A DNA stretch of 64,000 nucleotides from positions 1,302,001 through 1,366,000 of the forward strand of contig NZ_CP160035.1 in assembly GCF_040703125.1 (NCBI RefSeq), given 5' to 3'. Origin of the DNA: Flavobacterium ovatum. Lineage in GTDB: Bacteria > Bacteroidota > Bacteroidia > Flavobacteriales > Flavobacteriaceae. The notes below the pieces were generated by a model. The model did no database searches. It was not told where the DNA came from and worked only from the letters and a program-made list of their open reading frames with translations. The position numbers were made by a program, and so were the translations under genes. Shown here one piece after another: positions 22,461-33,608 of this stretch. The first letter of the stretch is position 1; each line of letters begins with the position of its first letter.

Positions 22461-22693
22461 AATAAATCGAATCTAAAATTAGTTGTGTTGTGATCAGTCT
22501 AGTTAACTGATCCTGGTTTAGTAGTTAGGCCAATGAAAAGCTTTCCACTTTATTCTGAATTTATTTCAGGATCTAGGGATGGCTTTTTTGATTTTAAAGA
22601 GACTTTGGTTTTAAAAAATTTTAGATCATGTTCAGAAAAGTCTTAAAAATAAAAGAATCAAGAACAAAACGGATCAAGAACAAAAGTTGGGGA

Positions 22694-23130
22694 TTAGGCA
22701 AATAATTTAGTTAATCTAAAGAGAAAGAAATCCACTTTTCGTACTCCTCTAAATTGATTTCTGAATGCTTTTATTTTAGCATTAAAAGATTCTGCCGAAG
22801 CATTTGTACTTCTATTATCAAAGTAGTTTAAAATCGAATCATAGTTGTATTAAAGCTTTAGTGTTTATTAGTTTCTTTTGAAAAATGACGCAAGCTCCTG
22901 TGTTGTGCGAGTTTCATCAGCTACTAAATCTCGGTTTTTTCAATTCTGCCTTACCGGTATCTTTGTTAATTCTTCTTCTTTGAGTGATATGAAGATGCAT
23001 ATGGTTTTCTGTAATTGGAAAGTTCGGAGTTGTTACTCTATATAATGAGTTCTTAAGAGCTCGGTTTGTGATACCTATATTTTTTAGGAATGGAATTAAT
23101 CTCCTTTCTTAGTAAGAACTCAATTCAATA
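22694..23130 (-). mobile_element. Remnant of an ISAon1-type (ISL3-like) insertion sequence
   Basis: Read on the minus strand, the left part (22694-22850) encodes a transposase C-terminus: ILNYFDNRSTNASAESFNAK continues to FRGVRKVDFFLFRLTKLFA and a stop. To its right are pieces in shifted frames of the companion N-region protein: NFPITENHMHLHITQRRR (about 22990-23030) and DLVADETRTTQELASFFK (about 22880-22935). The middle of the transposase is missing and stops and frameshifts interrupt the rest, so it is inactive. No terminal repeats could be identified. The flanks (22461-22693, 23131-23475) show nothing else recognisable. Confidence 0.78.
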
Positions 23131-23475
23131 TATTCAATGGTAATTAAATGGGATAACAATTATAGAAGCTATATACTCTATGAGAGGAATTGTGTATGGG
23201 TTTAATTTGAGTTGATGCATATCTTGTTTTCCTCTGCTTTTCTACTTGATTCTTGTTTTTGTTGTGTGATCTTGTCTTGATTCGTGTGTTTTCAGCAGTT
23301 TAACAGAAATAAATGTAGATTGCCGTTAATGTTTTAGAATTTGTTTTTATTGACATTAATTTGTCTCATCAAAATAAAACAAATGATTTTATTTTTATTT
23401 TGAAAAAAAAATTAACAAAAAAATTAAAGATAAAATCCCCCGAATTTATCGATAAACATTAGACCTACAATTATT

Positions 23476-24033
23476 ATGAAAAAATTATCATTATTAGCTA
23501 TAATAGCTATTGCTGCATTCTCAAACAATGTAAACGCTCAAACGAATACTGAAGATACTGAAACGACAAATGCACATGCTAAACTTATTAAAGTAATGAG
23601 TGTGGCAAATGCTGATACAGACGGCTTGGATTTTGGAACTATTGTTCTTACTGCAGCTGGGGCAAGTACAGTTACTATGGCGGCTGTAGATGCAACTAGG
23701 GTTTATGGAGCAAATAGTGCGGCAGCTGTAAATGCAAATCAATCTGCAAACACTGCAAAATATGATGTAACAGGTACGCCAAATGAGACTTATGCTTTGA
23801 CTTTGCCTACTACAGTAAGTTTGACGACTGCAACTTTAGGAACAGGCCTTGCTACAATGACGATTGGTAATTTGAAAGCTCGTTTTAGTGGAGGTAGTGC
23901 TGATGCAGTTGTTAGTAAACTATCTACAACAGGTACTGATTCATTTGCAGTAGGAGGGACTCTAAATATTGATGCTACTCAAAAACCTGGAGACTATACA
24001 GGTACATTTAATGTTACTGTAGATTATAACTAG
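23476..24033 (+). CDS. DUF4402 protein, putative major pilin-like subunit
   Basis: 185 residues with a signal peptide ending near NVNAQ. DUF4402 features: LDFGTIVLTAAGASTVTM (about 54-71) in the first half, and the C-terminal VGGTLNI...QKPGDYTGTFNVTVDYN strand pair. DUF4402 proteins are small Ig-like secreted domains that occur with PapD-like chaperones. Followed by its own terminator at 24052, it is transcribed apart from, and probably at a higher level than, the chaperone-usher genes. That fits a major structural subunit, which is an inference from layout. Confidence 0.82.
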   Translation: MKKLSLLAIIAIAAFSNNVNAQTNTEDTETTNAHAKLIKVMSVANADTDGLDFGTIVLTAAGASTVTMAAVDATRVYGANSAAAVNANQSANTAKYDVTGTPNETYALTLPTTVSLTTATLGTGLATMTIGNLKARFSGGSADAVVSKLSTTGTDSFAVGGTLNIDATQKPGDYTGTFNVTVDYN

Positions 24034-24051
24034 AAAAAAAATATCATAAAT

Positions 24052-24092
24052 AAGAGGAATGTGCTATTTGGGTACATTCCTCTTTTTTTTTG
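24052..24092 (+). terminator. Terminator after first DUF4402 gene
   Basis: AAGAGGAATGT (24052-24062) pairs with ACATTCCTCTT (24074-24084), followed by about eight T. Confidence 0.85.
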
Positions 24093-24100
24093 TATTTTTG
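24067..24100 (+). promoter_or_regulatory. Promoter of chaperone-usher operon
   Basis: TTTG at 24067-24070, a 22-nt gap and TATTTTTG at 24093-24100, overlapping the preceding terminator. The leader to the chaperone start is short (about 25 nt). Confidence 0.5.
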
Positions 24101-24128
24101 TAGCTTATTATAAATACTACCCCTATTA

Positions 24129-24941
24129 ATGCAAAAAAAGTTAATTGTATTCGTCAATCTATTTGTATCCCTTTTTTGTTTAAGTGTATTTGCCCAAGGT
24201 AATTTATATGTAACACCTAATAGGGTTGTGTTCGAAGGTAGAAATATCAAGGAAGTTTTGAGCTTAGCCAATACTGGTAATGAAACGGCAACCTATTCTA
24301 TTTCATTTGTGCAACGGCGTATGAATGAAGATGGTAGTTTTACAATTATTGAGACTCCAGACGAAGATGCTCCATTTGCAGATCCCTATTTGAGAATTTA
24401 TCCTCGTCAGGTGACTTTAGAGCCGAAAGAAGGTCAGTCAATAGTGCTTCAAGTGAAACGCACTGGTACTATGCCAGAAGGTGAATACCGTTCTCATATT
24501 TATTTTCGTTCGGAAAATGACTATGTTCCACTTGGTAAAGAAGCTAAAGATACTTTGAAAACGGTTAGTGTAAAATTAATTCCTGTTTTTGGTATCAGTA
24601 TTCCGATTATTATTCGAGTGGGAAATACTAGTGCAACAACTACCTTGAATGATTTGTCTCTTGATTTGAAGAATAAAAAGAATGAATTAACTTTTACTAT
24701 AAACCGAGAGGGTAATGCTTCCGTATATGGAGATTTAAAAGTGGAATATATTCAGCAAAACAAAAAGCCTATTGAGATAGGTGAAATTAGTGGCGTAGCA
24801 GTTTATACTAATATTAAGAAAAGAAAAATGGCTATTCAGCTCAATGCTCAGGATGTTAACTTAAGTAAAGGCAAGCTAAAGATAAGTTACATTGGTAGAG
24901 GTGATAAGGAAGTTATTGCTGAGGCCGAAATCAATTTATGA
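24129..24941 (+). CDS. PapD-like periplasmic fimbrial chaperone
   Basis: 270 residues. Signal peptide ends at SVFAQ. Residues ~22-150 form a PapD N-domain-like Ig fold: NLYVTPNRVVFEGRNIKEVLSLANTGNETATYSIS, then the long G1-type strand LRIYPRQVTLEPKEGQSIVLQVKR with PEGEYRSHIYFR. In classical systems this domain caps subunits by donor-strand complementation. The C-terminal half (about 165-270) is a second beta domain. First gene of an operon with a second DUF4402 gene (44 bp later) and the usher-like gene. Confidence 0.85.
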   Translation: MQKKLIVFVNLFVSLFCLSVFAQGNLYVTPNRVVFEGRNIKEVLSLANTGNETATYSISFVQRRMNEDGSFTIIETPDEDAPFADPYLRIYPRQVTLEPKEGQSIVLQVKRTGTMPEGEYRSHIYFRSENDYVPLGKEAKDTLKTVSVKLIPVFGISIPIIIRVGNTSATTTLNDLSLDLKNKKNELTFTINREGNASVYGDLKVEYIQQNKKPIEIGEISGVAVYTNIKKRKMAIQLNAQDVNLSKGKLKISYIGRGDKEVIAEAEINL

Positions 24942-24985
24942 TTATTAGATTTTTTACAAACTTTTTACCCTTACAATATTATTAA

Positions 24986-25522
24986 ATGCAAAGAGGATAT
25001 TTATATAAATCAAGTTTTAAATTGCCATTTCTTGGGGCAATTTACTTCTTTATAACATCTATTTATGCTCAGCCTGCTTTGCCACCAAGAGGTGTCTCTG
25101 TACAATCAACACAAGCATTGCATTTTGGTACATTTGCTCTCACTGGTGGAGGGGATGGTATTCTTTCCGTTGGGACAGACGGATATAGAAATGCAATTCA
25201 AAATGTATTTCTGTCGGAATTGACACCTACAGCCCAACCTGCCATTTTTGAAATTAAATTATGTCAAGGTAGAAATGTAACTATTAATTATGATTCTACA
25301 ACACCATTAATACGTATTGGAGGCGGTACAATGACACTTAATATTGGGCCAGCAAAAAGAGAGGGAATAAATACTACTTTGCAAAATGGGGATACTTTTT
25401 CATTACAAGGCAATTGTAACTTTATTACAATTTTGCGGGTTGGTGGAACTTTGCATATACCTTCAAATTCCTTACCGGGTATTTATACTGGCAGTTTTGA
25501 AATTACTTTTAATCAAGAATAA
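24986..25522 (+). CDS. Second DUF4402-like subunit, possible tip or anchor protein
   Basis: 178 residues. Hydrophobic segment LPFLGAIYFFITSIYAQ serves as signal sequence. The mature part repeats the DUF4402 layout: LHFGTFALTGGGDGILSVG, then VGGTLHIPSNSLPGIYTGSFEITF at the C-terminus. Unlike the first DUF4402 protein it has two cysteines (CQGRN and NCNF), which could form a disulfide. Its stop is immediately followed by the usher ATG (TAAATG), so translation is coupled. Low copy relative to the first subunit would fit a tip or base subunit. Confidence 0.75.
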   Translation: MQRGYLYKSSFKLPFLGAIYFFITSIYAQPALPPRGVSVQSTQALHFGTFALTGGGDGILSVGTDGYRNAIQNVFLSELTPTAQPAIFEIKLCQGRNVTINYDSTTPLIRIGGGTMTLNIGPAKREGINTTLQNGDTFSLQGNCNFITILRVGGTLHIPSNSLPGIYTGSFEITFNQE

Positions 25523-28500
25523 ATGAGACTTTTTTTTAAAGTGCTATATGATTTTCTTGATGAATTTCGATATTTGAAGTCTTATCTATTGTATTTTACA
25601 ATTTTTAGCTCTTTTACAATGTTTGGAAACAACGGTATTAAGAAGGAGAATAATTTGGATCCAGTAAACAATTTTGATATTATACCTGTAGAGGTAAATG
25701 TCAAAGGAATTCTCCATTTTGAAACAGAAGTTATTATAACGGACTCCAAAATTTTGTACTTTAATGTTGAAGATTTATTTAATAAATTAGGTATTAATGT
25801 AAAGATTGAAAATAATGGGAATATATTAAGTGGGTTTGTTGAGAATGAAAATAAAACCTATAGAATTGATATAGAGAATAGTCAGATTATTGTAGGCGGT
25901 AAAAATATAAAATCTATAAATGGTATTGTACAAAAAATGAATTCTATTTATGTAGAATCAAATTTGTTAACGGAAGCATTTGGTTTAAATATAATATTCA
26001 ATTTTCGTTCGTTATCTGTAAAATTGGACGCTACTTTTGAACTTCCAAAAATTAAACAGGCAAGATTAGAGAAGATGCGTAATAATATAAGTAAACTTCA
26101 AACTAATACTGAAAATTTCAAAGATACAATTGTAGGTAGAAATTATCATTTATTTAAAGCCGGTACATTAAATTGGTCTGCAAGTACTTTTCAAACATCT
26201 CAATCAGGAGGAGCTAATAATTTTGGATTGGGTTTAGGAAGTGAATTATTGTATGGTGAAGCAAATGTCTCTATATTTCTAAACTCACAAAGTGAATTTG
26301 ATAGTCGACAACTATTATATAATTGGCGATGGATAGATAATGAAAAAAAATATATAAAGCAGGCCCAAGTAGGTAAAGTAAATAGTCAAAGTATTTCCTT
26401 TTTAAAAGCACCACTTGTAGGAGCTAGTATAACGAACTCTTCTAATGCGGTAAGGAAAGCCAAAGGAACATTTACAATAAGCGAATATACCGAACCAAAC
26501 TGGACTGTTGAATTGTATATAAACGATGCCTTAGTGGATTACACTTCTGCGGATGCTTCGGGTTTGTATCTGTTTAAAGTGCCTATCGTATATGGTTATA
26601 CCACCTTGAAATTAAAATTTTATGGGCTTTTGGGAGAAGAGCGCATAGAAGAACGAGTTATGAATACACCTTATACTTTTATGCCTGTAAATGTATTGGA
26701 ATATAATCTTGTAGGAGGAGTTTTGGAAGATGAAAATTCAAGCCAGTTTGGCCGCGGTGAAGTTAATTATGGCCTTACTAGATTTTTAACAATTGGTGGT
26801 GGTTTAGAATACTTATCAAATATTCCGGAACATACTGCAATTCCATTTGCACATGCCGCCATACAGCCGTTTTCTAAAATGGTGATTAATATGGAATATG
26901 CGCATAATGTAAGTATTAAAGGATTGGTAAACTATTACCTGGGTAGTAGTTCTTTTTTAGAATTAGATTATCGCAAATATGTTGAAGGGCAGCAGGCGAC
27001 TTTTAATACTGCAAATGAAGAGCGAAGAGTGAAATTTTCATTTCCAAGTAAACTATATGCTATTTCAACTAATACAAAGTTGAGTTATAATCAATTTATA
27101 TATAATACTTTTAATTATAATCAGGTTAATACCGTGTTTTCGGGTAACTATAAAAATTATTCTGCTAATTTTTCATTAGCTTCAAACTGGATTAGTAATA
27201 GTGATGTTTTTTTAACTTCCAATTTAGCAATGTCCTTTAAAATGACAAATGGCTTGGTCATTCGTCCGTCAATTGATTATAATTTTTCTTCTAATCAATT
27301 AATGCGTTATGGTACAGTTTTAGAAAAGAGGGTTTCTAAAATGTCTTTTTCTGCGACTATAGAGAGAAACGAACAAATAAAATCGAACAATTTTTTATTG
27401 AATTTTAAATACGATTTGAATTTTGCACGAACGTATTTTTCAGTATCACATAATAATAATGGTTTTAATTCATCTCAAAGTGCACAAGGAAGTTTGGCTT
27501 TTGGTGGGGATAATGGCTATGTGAAAACGGGGAACAACTCTGCATTGGGAAAAGGCGGTATTTTATTATATCCGTTTCTTGATTTGAATAACAATGGCAG
27601 AAAAGATGTAGGTGAACCAACAGTTTTTGTAAAAGATGTGAAAATGACAAATGGCAAGGCAATTACCAGTGAAAGAGATTCCATAGTAAGGATCTCTGAT
27701 TTAAATGCTTTTGTGAATTATAATATACAGTTTGCGGATGCGGAGTTGGAGAGTATATCTTGGAGGTTTAAACACCATTCCTACCAAGTCTTAGTAGATC
27801 CAAACCAGTATAAAAAAGTGGAAGTGCCTATTTTGGTAGTAGGTGAAGTAAGCGGAATGATTTATCTGAATACAGCGGATGATTTAAAAGGTCAAGGTCG
27901 TATTACTATACAGATATACAATGATCACAACCAAAAAGTAGCTGAAACATTGAGTGAATCAGATGGTTATTATAATTATTTAGGGTTAAAGCCAGGGAAT
28001 TACACGATACGCGTTGATGACAATCAATTGGATAAACTGGATTATCAATCGACTCCTCAGATGCATAAAGTTGTGATTAAAGTGTCTGAAGAAGGAACAA
28101 TTGTTGAAGGATTGGATTTTCAAATTAAATCTAAGGGAACGCCAGAAGGGGTACAGGCGAATATTGCTGAAACTAATTTGCAGGTCAATGAGGGTGTGAT
28201 TTCAGAGTTTATAACGGCAAAACCTATTGAAAGTATTACCAATACAAATGAAGTTTTTTATAGTGTTCAGCTTGGAGTTTATAAAGGTCATACAATACCA
28301 AAAGAATTACATAATCTTGACCTAGTTTTTTATGAAGATTTAGCTGGCGGCAATGTTCAATTTTATTATGGTTTTTTTAGAACTAAAGAAAAAGCCCTTA
28401 TTGCTAAGAATACCCTTGTGTTAAGAGGGGTTCTTGATTCGTCAATAGTTGCATATCAATTTGGAAAAAAAATCGCGACACCTGTAACAACAGTGTCAAA

Positions 28501-28843
28501 AGAAGAAGATACGAAAGAGATAAGTATTCCAATTAAAAGGGATGAACAAATCAATTATAAAGTAAATATTTCTTTTGGTAAAATTTCAGATATTAAAGAA
28601 GATTTTTTTGGTGTACAAATTGGTGTGTTCAGAAATTATGTACCTTCGAAGCATCTTGTTAACTTTAATCCAATATATTACGAAATTATAACTGAGGATA
28701 GGATACGTTATATCTCAGGGAAATTTAAAACCTTTCAAGAGGCTAAAAGAATGAAGAATGAAATCGTTAGTAAGGGAATTAAAGACGCTTACATTGTTAA
28801 ATACAATGACGGTAAACGGGTTGGTCCTTCTTCAAAAGAATAG
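25523..28843 (+). CDS. Usher-like outer membrane barrel with two SPOR-like domains
   Basis: 1106 residues. After a signal segment (~19-36), residues 51-175 form an N-domain: VEDLFNKLGINVKIENN, ILSGFVENENKTYRIDIEN and IYVESNLLTEAFGLN, resembling the N-domain of usher-like proteins paired with DUF4402 genes in Proteobacteria. Residues ~210-665 are alternating barrel strands interrupted near 327-390 by a plug-like segment (WTVELYINDALVDYTSAD, then GYTTLKLKFYGLLGEERIEE) that matches the usher pattern. Next come an SdrD-type DLNNNGRKDVGEP (about 687) and a second Ig-like module GEVSGMIYL (774). The C-terminus has tandem SPOR-like domains, FYSVQLGVYKG (911-980) and FFGVQIGVFRN (1027-1100). The SPOR addition is unusual for an usher. 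Confidence 0.75.
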   Translation: MRLFFKVLYDFLDEFRYLKSYLLYFTIFSSFTMFGNNGIKKENNLDPVNNFDIIPVEVNVKGILHFETEVIITDSKILYFNVEDLFNKLGINVKIENNGNILSGFVENENKTYRIDIENSQIIVGGKNIKSINGIVQKMNSIYVESNLLTEAFGLNIIFNFRSLSVKLDATFELPKIKQARLEKMRNNISKLQTNTENFKDTIVGRNYHLFKAGTLNWSASTFQTSQSGGANNFGLGLGSELLYGEANVSIFLNSQSEFDSRQLLYNWRWIDNEKKYIKQAQVGKVNSQSISFLKAPLVGASITNSSNAVRKAKGTFTISEYTEPNWTVELYINDALVDYTSADASGLYLFKVPIVYGYTTLKLKFYGLLGEERIEERVMNTPYTFMPVNVLEYNLVGGVLEDENSSQFGRGEVNYGLTRFLTIGGGLEYLSNIPEHTAIPFAHAAIQPFSKMVINMEYAHNVSIKGLVNYYLGSSSFLELDYRKYVEGQQATFNTANEERRVKFSFPSKLYAISTNTKLSYNQFIYNTFNYNQVNTVFSGNYKNYSANFSLASNWISNSDVFLTSNLAMSFKMTNGLVIRPSIDYNFSSNQLMRYGTVLEKRVSKMSFSATIERNEQIKSNNFLLNFKYDLNFARTYFSVSHNNNGFNSSQSAQGSLAFGGDNGYVKTGNNSALGKGGILLYPFLDLNNNGRKDVGEPTVFVKDVKMTNGKAITSERDSIVRISDLNAFVNYNIQFADAELESISWRFKHHSYQVLVDPNQYKKVEVPILVVGEVSGMIYLNTADDLKGQGRITIQIYNDHNQKVAETLSESDGYYNYLGLKPGNYTIRVDDNQLDKLDYQSTPQMHKVVIKVSEEGTIVEGLDFQIKSKGTPEGVQANIAETNLQVNEGVISEFITAKPIESITNTNEVFYSVQLGVYKGHTIPKELHNLDLVFYEDLAGGNVQFYYGFFRTKEKALIAKNTLVLRGVLDSSIVAYQFGKKIATPVTTVSKEEDTKEISIPIKRDEQINYKVNISFGKISDIKEDFFGVQIGVFRNYVPSKHLVNFNPIYYEIITEDRIRYISGKFKTFQEAKRMKNEIVSKGIKDAYIVKYNDGKRVGPSSKE

Positions 28844-28988: not shown

Positions 28989-31900
28989 ATGAAAAAAAAT
29001 ACTTTTTCAAAAAAAATAATTAAAACAATAGCTAGAGCAAATTATGTGAAAACAATCTTTGTATTGTTTTTGGTGTTTGGATCTACCGCTGCTTTTGGTC
29101 AAACGGAAGTAACACGTACTGCTGCAGGGACGACAAGTTTTACAGCTCCTACAGGTATTACAGCTGTTACGGTACAAGCTTGGGGTTCAGGTGGAGCAGG
29201 TGGAGGTTCATCATCAAACAAAAGTGCAGGTAGTGGAGGTGGAGGAGGAGCTTATAGTTTTAATAATGCAGTAATCGTTTTGCCTGGAACTACATATACT
29301 AGTGGTATAGTGGTAGGAGCTGCTGGAGCTGCTGGCAGTGTTAGTGGAGCTGCCGGAGGGAATGGAAATCCTTCTTCGGTTGTATTCGGTACAACAGTAA
29401 CCGCAAATGGAGGACAGGGTGGTAATGGAAATGGTATAAATGCAACTCCAGTTGGAGATGGAGGTGCAGCAGGAATTTATTCAGGAGGAAATGGTGGAAG
29501 TGGAACTCAGGGAGCAGATGGGCCTGGAGGAGGAGGAGGAAGTAGTGCTGGAATTTCAGCCGCTGGAAATAACGGAGCGATCACTACTGCTGGTGCTGCT
29601 GTTACAGGTGGTGGAGCTGGTGGAGCGGGAGGAGCTTCGGGTGTAATTGGGTCGGTAGGATTGTCTCCAGGCGGTGGAGGCGGTGGAGGTGGTGATAGAA
29701 ATGGAGCTACAAGCTCTATTGGCGGAAATGGTGCAGTTGGTAAGGTAATCATATCTTATTTTCAATTATCAAGTACACCTAACGTTGCTGGTTGTATAGG
29801 CACTTCAGCAACCATAACTGTCACGGGTACCGCCGTAAATTTGCCAGCTGGAACTTATACTGTGGTTTATGATTTAAGTGCTCCAAATGCTTCAACTAAT
29901 AACAGTACAACCATGACGGTAAGTGCCGCTGGTACTGGAACATTTGGAACAGTAGCGTTAAATAGCGTAGGGGTGACAACGCTTACGATTACTTCTATTG
30001 CTTCCACAATAGGAAGTGTGCTACATAAAACGACCTACGATAGTACCGGAAATGCAAAAAACAAAGCAACAATTACTGTAGCTTCAAATAACACAGTAGG
30101 AGCAGCATCATCAACTCCTACTTTATGTATTAACACAGCAATGACTTCAATCACCCACAGTACGACTGGCGCTACTGGTATTGGATTAGCTACTGGTTTA
30201 CCAACTGGAGTTACTGCTTCTTGGGTGTTAAATACAATTACTATTAGTGGAACTCCAACTAACTCTGGGGCTTTTAACTATAGTATTCCATTAACGGGAG
30301 GTTGCGGAACAGTAAATGCTACAGGTACTATAACTGTCACTCCTGTCCCAGCTACCCCAGGCGCAATTACAGGAAAAGCTACACAATGTCCATCATTAAC
30401 TTCACAAACCTATAGTATTTCAGCAGTAACAAATGCTACGACTTATAATTGGGTTGTGCCAACAGGCTGGACAATAACTGCGGGTTCAGGTACTACTTCT
30501 ATTACCGTTACAACAGGAACAGCAGGTCAAAATGTAAATATAGCCGTTTCTGCACAAAACAGTTGCGGTACAAGTGCAGCGCAAACCTTGGCAGTTACGG
30601 TTAGTGCAGCTACACCAGCTACACCAGGCTCAATTACAGGAACCGCTACACAATGTCCGTCATTAACTTCACAAACCTATAGTGTTTCAGCAGTTGCCAA
30701 TGCTACAACTTATAATTGGGTTGTACCAACTGGCTGGACAATTACTGCGGGTTCAGGGACTTCTTCTATTACCGTTACAACTGGAACAGCAGGTCAAAAT
30801 GGAAATATTACCGTATCAGCACAAAACAGTTGTGGAGCAAGTGCTTTACAAACTTTGGCAGTGACGGTTTCAGCTATACCTGCTACGCCAGGTTCAATTT
30901 CAGGGACAATTAAGCAATATCCGGGGATTACAAATCAGGTATATAGTATTTCTGCAGTTGCCAACGCAACTACTTACTCATGGGCGGTACCAACCGGTTG
31001 GTCAATTACTTCAGGAGTAGGAACAACATCAATTTCCGTGACCACGGGATCGGCTGGTCAGAATGGAAACATAACAGTCTCTGCAGGTAACTCCTGTGGC
31101 ACTAGTGCAGGTGTAGCTACAGTTCAGGTAGCGGTAACTGTTAATCTTCGATCAATTGAAAATTTCACTCTTTATTCTTCTTCAGGAGCGGTATCAAATA
31201 CTGCTATTTCAGATGTTACAGGTAATATTGGTACAAATCTGGGTTCAGTAACTGGCTTTGGAGCTCCTTCAGTTGTAAGTGGAAGTATTGAAACTGCTAA
31301 TAGTATTACTGCACAAGCAGCCTTAGATTTAAATAGTATTTGTACTCAAATAACCAATACCATAACTACAAATTCAACTAGTGGTGCCAGAGCTATGGGT
31401 AATGGCGAGACGCTGGTACCAGGGGTTTATTTTATTGGAGGTGCAACATCTATAGGAGGGATTCTTACCTTAGATGGGCAAGGAGATCCGAACGCACAAT
31501 TTATTTTTAAAATAGGAGGTGCTTTCACGACTGCAGCTAATGCTACCGTAGTTTTGATTAATGGCGCTTCATCAGCTAATATATTTTGGATGGCTAATGG
31601 TGCAATTGCTATGGCTGCTTCAACGAACATGAGTGGGACTCTAATAGGTAATCCTGGAGCAGTTTCTATGGGGGCAGATGGACAATTACTGGGGAGATTA
31701 CTTTCTACCGATGGTGCTATTTCTATTTATGGTACTGTTGCTTCAAATGTGAATATAAATAAATGGAAAGGCTCTATAAGCAATAACTGGAATATTTCCG
31801 GAAACTGGACTAAAAATTCAGTACCAGCAGCTGATGCGAGTATCCTTTTTGATGAAGCTCCTTCGAATCATTTAGTACTGGATCAGAATCGATCAGTTAC

Positions 31901-33608
31901 TAATATTGTAAATGCACAATCTGTCTATAGAGTAGTTTGCAATGGCTATAAACTTACTTTGAAAGGGAATGTGCTTTTTACAAACGGAGCACAGATAGAT
32001 GCCTTAGCGACTAATTCGATCGTTGAGTATGCTGGTATTTCATCACAAACCATTGAAAGCAGTCAATATCTCAACGAAAAAATATTTAATTTATACATCG
32101 AGAATACAGTAGGGGTGGATCTCAATACCGACTTCACTCTTGATAATAATCTGATAATTAATTCAGGGAAAATATTCACAATTCAAGCTGCTAAAAGCCT
32201 AACCGTTTCAGGTTCGATTACTAATAATTCTAATACTTCAGGACTAGTTCTAAAATCGACTGCTACTGGTACTGCTTCTCTAATCCATTATTCTGATAAT
32301 GTTTCTGCAACTGTACAAAGATACATCAGCGGTGTAAAAGAAGCTTGGCATTTTCTGTCGGCACCAGTTTCTGATCAAGTTATAGCAGGGACTTCTTGGG
32401 CACCTTCTGGAACTTATGGCAATGGAACAGGTTATGATTTGTACCTTTGGAATGAGCCAACTCCTTGTTGGACTTACTTATTAAACACAACAGTAGCACC
32501 AACTTGGCCTTCTCTTCATCCTACAGGGAATTTTGTAAAAGGAAGAGGGTATTTGTATTCGACTCAAGCGCTAAACCCTACCAAAGAATTTACAGGATTA
32601 TTGAATAATGGAAATATAACGTATCCACTTACCAATAGCAGTCCAGATTTGACTGTGAAAGGATTTAATTTAATTGGAAATCCATATCCATCATCAATAG
32701 ATTGGAAATCCATTTCAGGTTGGACACGATCAGATTTAATGACTTCTGTTGGGGGGTATGATATGTGGATTTGGAATCCTGATGCTAATAATTATGGCGT
32801 GTATAACTCTTTAGGGACAACGGGAACTAATAGTGTTACCCAATATATTCCGCCAACTCAAGGTTTTTTTGTTAGAGCTTCAACTGAAGGTTCTGTTGCC
32901 ATGAGCAATGCGGTTAGAGTAAATAATGGTGCTAGCAATTGGATGAAAATTAAAGCCGAAAAAGAGAATCGTCTGAAAGTAAAGATAGAATCTAAGGATG
33001 GTAATGGTTTTGATGAGGTTTTAGCAGAATTTGGTTATGACTCAAATGAAGCAGGAGCTTTAAAGCTCTTTAGTCGTAGTTTAGTAGCTCCGTCTATATA
33101 CTGGAACGAGTCTAATAAGGATTTAACAGTACGTTATTTGACAAATGTAATCGAAAATTCTAAACTCCCGTTGCTGTTCAAAGCAGGGAAAAGTGGTTCG
33201 TTTACTATGACCTTGGATTATCATATTTCAAATCTTTCAACCTTTTTATTAGAAGATAAAAAAACGAATACAATCCAAGATTTAAATGAATCTCCAAGTT
33301 ATCAATTTAACGCTACGGTTAATGATGCGGATGATAGATTTGTATTGCATTTTGCTCCTATCATAGTAGAGCCGGTGAAATTACCAGCACTTATTTACTA
33401 CAACGGTAGTGAAATTGTGGTAGATTTGACACTGGTCGAAAACAAAACAACCATTAAAATCTATGATATTGCAGGTAAATTATTAGCAGATAAATGGGTT
33501 GATGGTAAAATGGTGCATCGTTTTGTGGTAAATAATAAAAACGAAATTTATATTGTGCTGGCAAATAGTAATGGTAAATTAATTAGCCAAAAGGTCTTTG
33601 TCTATTAA
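28989..33608 (+). CDS. Giant T9SS-secreted adhesin-like protein with DUF3494 domain
   Basis: 1539 residues from the ATG at 28989; an in-frame TTG at 28977 is less likely. Order: signal peptide to AAFGQ (~36), glycine-rich domain (~43-254), two Ig-like domains (~261-453), three tandem PKD-like repeats of ~88 residues (~453-718), a DUF3494 ice-binding-type beta-helix (~722-925: [36 protein letters not shown]), a beta-rich region, and a T9SS type A sorting tail ([17 protein letters not shown] to VFVY). It is likely exported and attached to the surface. DUF3494 proteins bind ice in some species; others act in adhesion. It lies 145 bp after the usher gene. Confidence 0.88.
30346..31140 (+). repeat. 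Three tandem ~264-bp repeats inside the adhesin gene
   Basis: Each unit encodes one PKD-like domain with [15 protein letters not shown]. Units 1 (30346-30612) and 2 (30613-30876) are very similar even at synonymous sites, whereas unit 3 (30877-31140) is more diverged, indicating a recent duplication of units 1 and 2. Confidence 0.8.

Follow-up and report, generated by a model that had tools for sequence, protein, structure and literature searches.

The closest described counterparts of the locus considered here are the type 1 and P pili of Escherichia coli (FimC-FimD-FimA and PapD-PapC-PapA), in which pilin, chaperone and usher are encoded in one operon. Pilins of this kind carry a C-terminal motif (a penultimate aromatic residue and a Gly at position -14), the chaperone active site contains the pair Arg8 and Lys112, and the plug of the usher FimD lies after barrel strand 6. 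Type V (Mfa/Fim) pili are surface fibres of the phylum Bacteroidota. Here we analyze a 64,000-nucleotide stretch of Flavobacterium ovatum DNA (hereafter the window; positions 1,302,001 to 1,366,000 of contig NZ_CP160035.1, part of a 4.25-Mb single-contig genome), in which four closely spaced plus-strand genes encode, in order, a DUF4402 protein (D1), a PapD-like chaperone (CH), a second DUF4402 protein (D2) and an usher (US). These genes very probably form a chaperone-usher (CU) operon, that is, a fibre assembly system representing a divergent branch in Bacteroidota and some Proteobacteria. The first-pass annotation of the window had proposed the four genes, the two DUF4402 assignments, the coupling of the last two genes and a terminator after D1, and all were recovered: the four open reading frames (ORFs) are complete and lie where they had been placed, D1 and D2 score 82.7 and 62.4 bits against DUF4402 (Pfam cut-off 25.2), the stop codon of D2 runs directly into the start codon of US (TAAATG), and a hairpin followed by a T run separates D1 from CH (Table 1).

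The AlphaFold2 model of US (predicted local distance difference test, pLDDT, 78) most resembles classical ushers, with FimD or PapC structures as all 19 of its best matches in the PDB (Foldseek, E 8e-27). The modeled elements, counted by eye from their list, comprise 24 barrel strands with the plug after strand 6, as in FimD. Residues 49-868 align with FimD (3rfz_E; root-mean-square deviation 14.3 over the whole chain), and residues 213-658 were aligned to FimD residues 139-656. The model thus predicts the N-terminal domain, 24-strand plugged barrel and C-terminal domains that define an usher, and the earlier proposal of an usher-like barrel stands, as neither a different strand number nor a missing plug was found. 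In contrast to this structural likeness, identity in the structure alignments with the type 1 and P pilus proteins is only ~10-12%. US lacks any Pfam Usher, PapC_N or PapC_C match, and the Usher model (PF00577) finds nothing at E up to 1 in US and 13 relatives. The Pfam matches in US are an SdrD_B/CarboxypepD_reg-like domain at residues 790-833, a Cu_amine_oxidN1-like N-terminus and a weak SPOR match. Searches of the PDB by sequence and by profile with the locus proteins recovered no CU protein.

The CH profile aligns collinearly with FimC in a comparison with six fimbrial chaperones of E. coli K-12 (hhalign 91.8%, E 7e-7, 195 columns). Arg32 of CH is invariant (54/54) and falls on Arg8 of FimC, and the column of FimC Lys112 is Pro in the CH family consensus. 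Weak PapD_N matches occur in 8 of 15 members of the CH alignment (best E 3.8e-4), a single homologue, on a Polaromonas plasmid, exceeds the cut-off, and the Pfam and NCBIfam scans give no PapD model at cut-off for the window CH. On the strength of the profile alignment, CH can be regarded as a PapD-like two-domain periplasmic chaperone. The CU identity assigned to CH and US in the first-pass annotation is therefore upheld by profile and structure matches, but not by any Usher or PapD model at cut-off on the window proteins.

D1 consists of a signal peptide (residues ~1-21), an N-terminal extension and an Ig-like pilin core ending in a penultimate Tyr. CU pilins lead the PDB matches of its model (pLDDT 88.2), each match being moderate (Foldseek, VIA-align). 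The Ig-like fold, N-terminal extension and C-terminal pilin motif are all found in the D1/D2 family, with moderate fold scores; the penultimate Tyr is present in 139 of 153 D1 proteins, as compared with 12 of 13 E. coli K-12 pilins, which have the motif Gly in 13 of 13. The N-terminal stretch of D2 is ~9 residues shorter than that of D1 (lengths parsed for 122/153 D1 and 56/80 D2). The top Foldseek matches of D1 are Caf1 and CfaB subunits, and one to three D1 genes precede the chaperone in 85 of 93 surveyed loci, observations which would suit a variant in which the same CU machine produces a thin flexible fibre or a capsule-like coat (as with Caf1) instead of a rod pilus. However, the VIA-align scores of the PapG pilin domain and of FimG, Csu and Caf1 subunits span about one Z unit, too narrow a spread to distinguish a rod from a coat; we regard a thin fibre or coat as a real possibility, though not as the expected product.

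Other pilus classes were compared with the locus. A type V pilus was rejected because the Pfam scan assigns D1 and D2 to DUF4402 and gives them no Mfa/Fim match, and because neither has a lipoprotein-type Cys at the end of the signal peptide; the locus also differs from that class in having an usher and a chaperone. The alternative (CS1/Ecp) clade, represented by EcpC of E. coli K-12, shares the CU logic, and the EcpC C-terminus gives a sub-cut-off CarboxypepD_reg match. Membership in this clade was nonetheless rejected, as EcpC contains TcfC and CooC_C domains and ushers of the window family match neither; EcpC against the window usher family gives hhalign 0.8%, a weak comparison based on a single sequence. 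Archaic Csu/CupE pili are represented among the structural matches of D1 by CsuA/B, CsuE and CupE subunits, whereas the window pilins belong to DUF4402. This likeness is judged from subunits alone, and the VIA-align list for the usher contains no archaic usher, which is not evidence against kinship.

The gene order D1-CH-D2-US recurs across Bacteroidota, with D1-CH-US on proteobacterial plasmids. Among the 93 loci with a chaperone, at least one D1 lies upstream in 87, D2 is present in 76, an usher follows in 78, and D2 and usher occur together in 74. The survey dropped L033 and L039 (copies of L085 and L055) and the fragment L042, and in L043 the fetched stretch contains no chaperone; near-copies such as L080/L084, L065/L068 and L123/L125 were kept, and the loci are not all independent. 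In several loci without D2 or usher, the sequence runs out at a contig or locus end, or a very large gene lying between CH and D2 takes up the fetched stretch. Of 75 D2-usher pairs, 58 overlap or are separated by no more than 20 nt. The four genes are thus linked in relatives, as the first-pass annotation had expected. No natural chaperone-pilin fusion was noticed in the surveyed gene orders, although no separate search for one was made.

At family level, 11 of 199 sampled genomes have an usher match of any kind; in 6 of them, the window's included, the match covers the barrel, and in the other 5 it is confined to the SPOR part. At genus level, 12 of 199 sampled genomes of Flavobacterium encode a member of the usher family (window's included; some cut by contig ends). 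The chaperone pattern retrieved 349 loci from one-genome-per-species contigs, and the titles of the best 80, which were kept, name Flavobacteriia, Bacteroidales, Chitinophagaceae and Sphingobacteria, along with one Williamsia metagenome-assembled genome that is probably mis-binned. The chaperone profile matches 52 of 395 Bacteroidota genomes (20 strongly, E < 1e-57; 32 weakly), yet Pfam Usher exceeds its cut-off in 0 of the 395, its 4 lower-scoring matches all lying in family f24. Four distant relatives (L152-L155; three from f24, one from f22) carry chaperone-usher pairs beside pilin-like genes. One of them, L152, reaches Pfam Usher at E 2e-4, below cut-off, which at the level of sequence is a link to the classical ushers.

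Five plasmid records likewise contain chaperone matches, and four of these records were inspected. A Sphingopyxis and two Polaromonas plasmids carry DUF4402 genes, a chaperone annotated as 'molecular' or 'fimbria/pilus periplasmic', and, adjoining it with no gene between, a 'carboxypeptidase-like regulatory' protein of 893-896 aa. On a Pseudoalteromonas plasmid the chaperone is followed by a 1062-aa 'SdrD B-like' protein and preceded by a gene that matches neither DUF4402 nor the locus pilin profiles. The usher profile matches plasmid proteins in three of the four records (E 1e-57 to 4.6e-38); in the Sphingopyxis record the ORF caller picked different reading frames, and the comparison of its genes was limited to the hhalign profiles. 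A search of plasmids for near-identical copies of the locus gave no match, and a search of viral contigs gave no usher relative.

Table 1. Features of the locus and its surroundings, in window coordinates
Feature	Position	Strand	Details
D1: DUF4402 protein, probable major pilin	23476-24033	+	185 aa, complete ORF
Terminator-like hairpin and T run between D1 and CH	24052-24094	+	hairpin 24052-24084, 14 pairs
CH: PapD-like periplasmic chaperone	24129-24941	+	270 aa, complete ORF
D2: second DUF4402 protein	24986-25522	+	178 aa, complete ORF
US: outer-membrane usher with C-terminal peptidoglycan-binding-type tail	25523-28843	+	1106 aa, complete ORF
Usher N-terminal periplasmic domain, residues ~45-170	25655-26032	+	AlphaFold2 model, FimD alignment
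Usher beta-barrel, residues 211-661	26153-27505	+	6 strands, plug, 18 strands in model element list
Usher plug, residues ~312-381	26456-26665	+	model element list
Usher C-terminal domains, residues ~677-870; second SdrD_B/CarboxypepD_reg-like	27551-28132	+	Pfam scan, model
First SPOR-like segment, residues ~931-1010, weakly supported	28313-28552	+	homology to L037 segment and second copy
Second SPOR domain, residues ~1028-1095	28604-28807	+	PF05036 match, model element order
Neighbouring large secreted protein, possible surface adhesin	28989-33608	+	T9SS-like C-terminus at ~33393-33602

Five terminator-like sites occur in the region, where 2.5 would be expected, and the hairpin that follows D1 is the longest of them. 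Such a site occurs in 37 of 63 D1-CH spacers of 40-600 nt, as compared with 0.4 in letter-shuffled spacers, and same-length spacers elsewhere have none (0/33 CH-D2, 0/6 D2-US). The hairpin probably acts as a transcriptional attenuator that leaves D1 in excess, and its recurrence fits a major pilin, which D1 probably is. By homology with FimC/FimD, D1 and D2 would enter the periplasm as Ig-like pilins with an incomplete fold; the chaperone would complete each pilin and deliver it to the N-terminal domain of the usher, which would open its plug and thread the fibre, presumably built by donor-strand exchange, through the barrel. D2, usually present once per locus, coupled to the usher and shorter at its N-terminus, is the probable tip or initiating subunit and would be threaded first, with the excess of D1 then forming the shaft.

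Unlike the type 1 and P pilus ushers, members of the window family end in an SdrD/CarboxypepD-like last C-terminal domain, part of them carry a peptidoglycan-binding-type tail, and giant secreted proteins are encoded nearby. Of the two SPOR-like domains that the first-pass annotation had placed in the window tail, the second narrowly exceeds the cut-off when the tail is scanned alone (21.3 bits, cut-off 21; 13.6 bits, E 0.086, in the whole-protein scan) and is modeled in the SPOR-like order strand-helix-strand-strand-helix-strand. The first has no Pfam match and a pLDDT of ~30, its assignment coming from homology, as 41/54 residues are identical in the corresponding segment of relative L037 and 17/54 in the second copy. 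Thirteen of the 30 tails scanned contain peptidoglycan-binding modules above the Pfam cut-off, namely SPOR (n = 10, window included), OmpA plus SPOR (L061 and L067) and PG_binding_1 (L085, Salinimicrobium catena); of the others, 10 have sub-cut-off SPOR alone and 7 have none. Across 60 of the 62 complete ushers (L033 and L039 dropped), 24, including the window's, carry peptidoglycan-binding-type tails of these three kinds, with SPOR alone in 21; the 10 tails below the SPOR cut-off (E < 0.1) and that of L036 (homology to L048) are counted as SPOR, and four unassigned tails stand outside the count. On a quick tree of the 60 usher cores the SPOR label needs 11 changes, 9 of them forced by starred branches. 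Outside this core group, the Pseudoalteromonas plasmid usher is also SPOR-tailed, and of three distant relatives scanned, L152 has SPOR (55.6 bits), L155 has OmpA plus SPOR and L154 has neither. No such modules were found in the six E. coli K-12 ushers scanned, and we know of no wall tie in classical ushers.

The proposal that the usher is tied to peptidoglycan gains support from this apparent repeated gain or loss of unlike peptidoglycan-binding tails, and it is likely, judging from the tail sequences, that the SPOR tail tethers the usher to the wall. A flexible linker and the tail would then reach the peptidoglycan and hold the usher and the base of the fibre in place. Weighing against a wall tie, 32 of the 60 ushers have no tail. 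The tail could instead steer the usher to sites of division or of denuded glycan and thereby restrict pilus emergence to certain places, without anchoring the usher mechanically; the predominance of SPOR among the counted tails speaks for such steering, as do the SPOR domains of E. coli, which bind septal, denuded glycan. OmpA-type and PG_binding_1 domains, however, accompany or replace SPOR in relatives, and the ligands of these domains belong to the wall at large, a pattern more readily explained by tethering than by targeting to the septum; steering alone is rather improbable.

Sequence comparison with Flavobacterium gillisiae DSM 22376, whose chaperone is 99% identical to CH, suggests that the core of the operon has been exchanged. 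Window positions 23344-28129 match the F. gillisiae genome at 97% DNA identity, whereas the other longer matches in the two stretches tested show 67-88% identity, the housekeeping ones lying on other contigs of the F. gillisiae draft. A finer profile sets the borders of the resulting ~4.6-kb block at ~23455 (just 5' of the D1 start) and ~28040 (usher residue ~840). The block ends ~30 residues before the usher linker and tail, so a breakpoint exactly at the boundary between usher and tail was rejected. The two ushers are 98% identical in their N-domains and barrels, but the F. gillisiae protein has 995 aa and one SPOR-like segment as compared with 1106 aa and two in the window, and the tail and possible adhesin downstream on the same F. 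gillisiae contig are 67-68% identical to those of the window. The 97% block amid such divergent surroundings suggests a recent exchange in which the pilin-chaperone-usher core moved as one piece. Tyrosine integrase and transposase genes, read by eye, flank the F. gillisiae locus (L048 2053-2913, 4781-5464 and 18155-19147), and window positions 22671-22834, a transposase-like remnant, match one of these mobile genes at 73%. The window genome also contains an orphan third DUF4402 gene ~55 kb upstream of the locus (G000:C1:1270669-1271046; L005, L047); the idea that it is a displaced copy of the F. gillisiae upstream pilin was not supported, only 96 bases aligning at 71%.

In three relatives (L045, L053 and L121) the usher gene is split into two or three pieces and looks broken. 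Such cases would suit a reading of the window locus as a decayed or non-functional relic, but the four window genes are open, the core shared with F. gillisiae has kept its frames open in both genomes, and motifs are kept across the phylum, all of which makes a relic very improbable.

The large secreted protein encoded downstream of US is Gly-rich, with three PKD-like domains as well as ice-binding-like ones (Pfam scan), and its C-terminal part is 59-68% identical to post-usher proteins in L037 and L036. Its last 70 residues match (E 2.7e-8) a C-terminal profile derived from 18 large proteins encoded between CH and D2 in other loci, a profile that by visual reading looks like a sorting domain of the type IX secretion system (T9SS). 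No Pfam or NCBIfam sorting-domain model matched the window neighbour. Same-strand neighbours with such a C-terminus occur in 45 of the 74 complete loci (20 between CH and D2, 15 before, 11 after), as compared with 15 such C-termini in the entire window genome, the neighbour included. Since the profile was built from the neighbours themselves, this enrichment is only suggestive. In L032, L034 and many of L079-L125, CH and D2 are separated by large ORFs (36, of 410 to >3300 aa); the one in L034 has a SUEL lectin domain, and four of six scanned have no Pfam family. The proximity of these proteins raises the alternative that the operon is a platform, its DUF4402 fibre holding or displaying giant neighbours that themselves perform the adhesion. 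We consider such a platform unlikely, given that 29 of the 74 complete loci show no such C-terminus in the fetched stretch (some cut by contig ends), that the Pfam sorting-domain model matched, below cut-off, only one of six scanned neighbours (L119, 23.5 versus 27 bits), not the window's, and that no physical link is known between the fibre and the giant neighbours.

The distribution of the locus indicates that this branch is easily overlooked, the Pfam Usher model reaching its cut-off in none of the sampled Bacteroidota although the usher and chaperone families are present. The locus points to a probable pilin role for DUF4402, which is annotated as a domain of unknown function. Taken together, the data can tentatively be read as an overlooked CU branch forming a wall-anchored organelle, in which a portable usher core has its tails swapped (SPOR, OmpA, PG_binding_1) and the fibre works with T9SS-exported giant adhesins from the same locus. 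If wall ties came and went repeatedly in the usher family, as the tails suggest, the resistance of a pilus to pulling force becomes testable, and the locus may bring chaperone-usher assembly and T9SS surface export into one gene neighbourhood.

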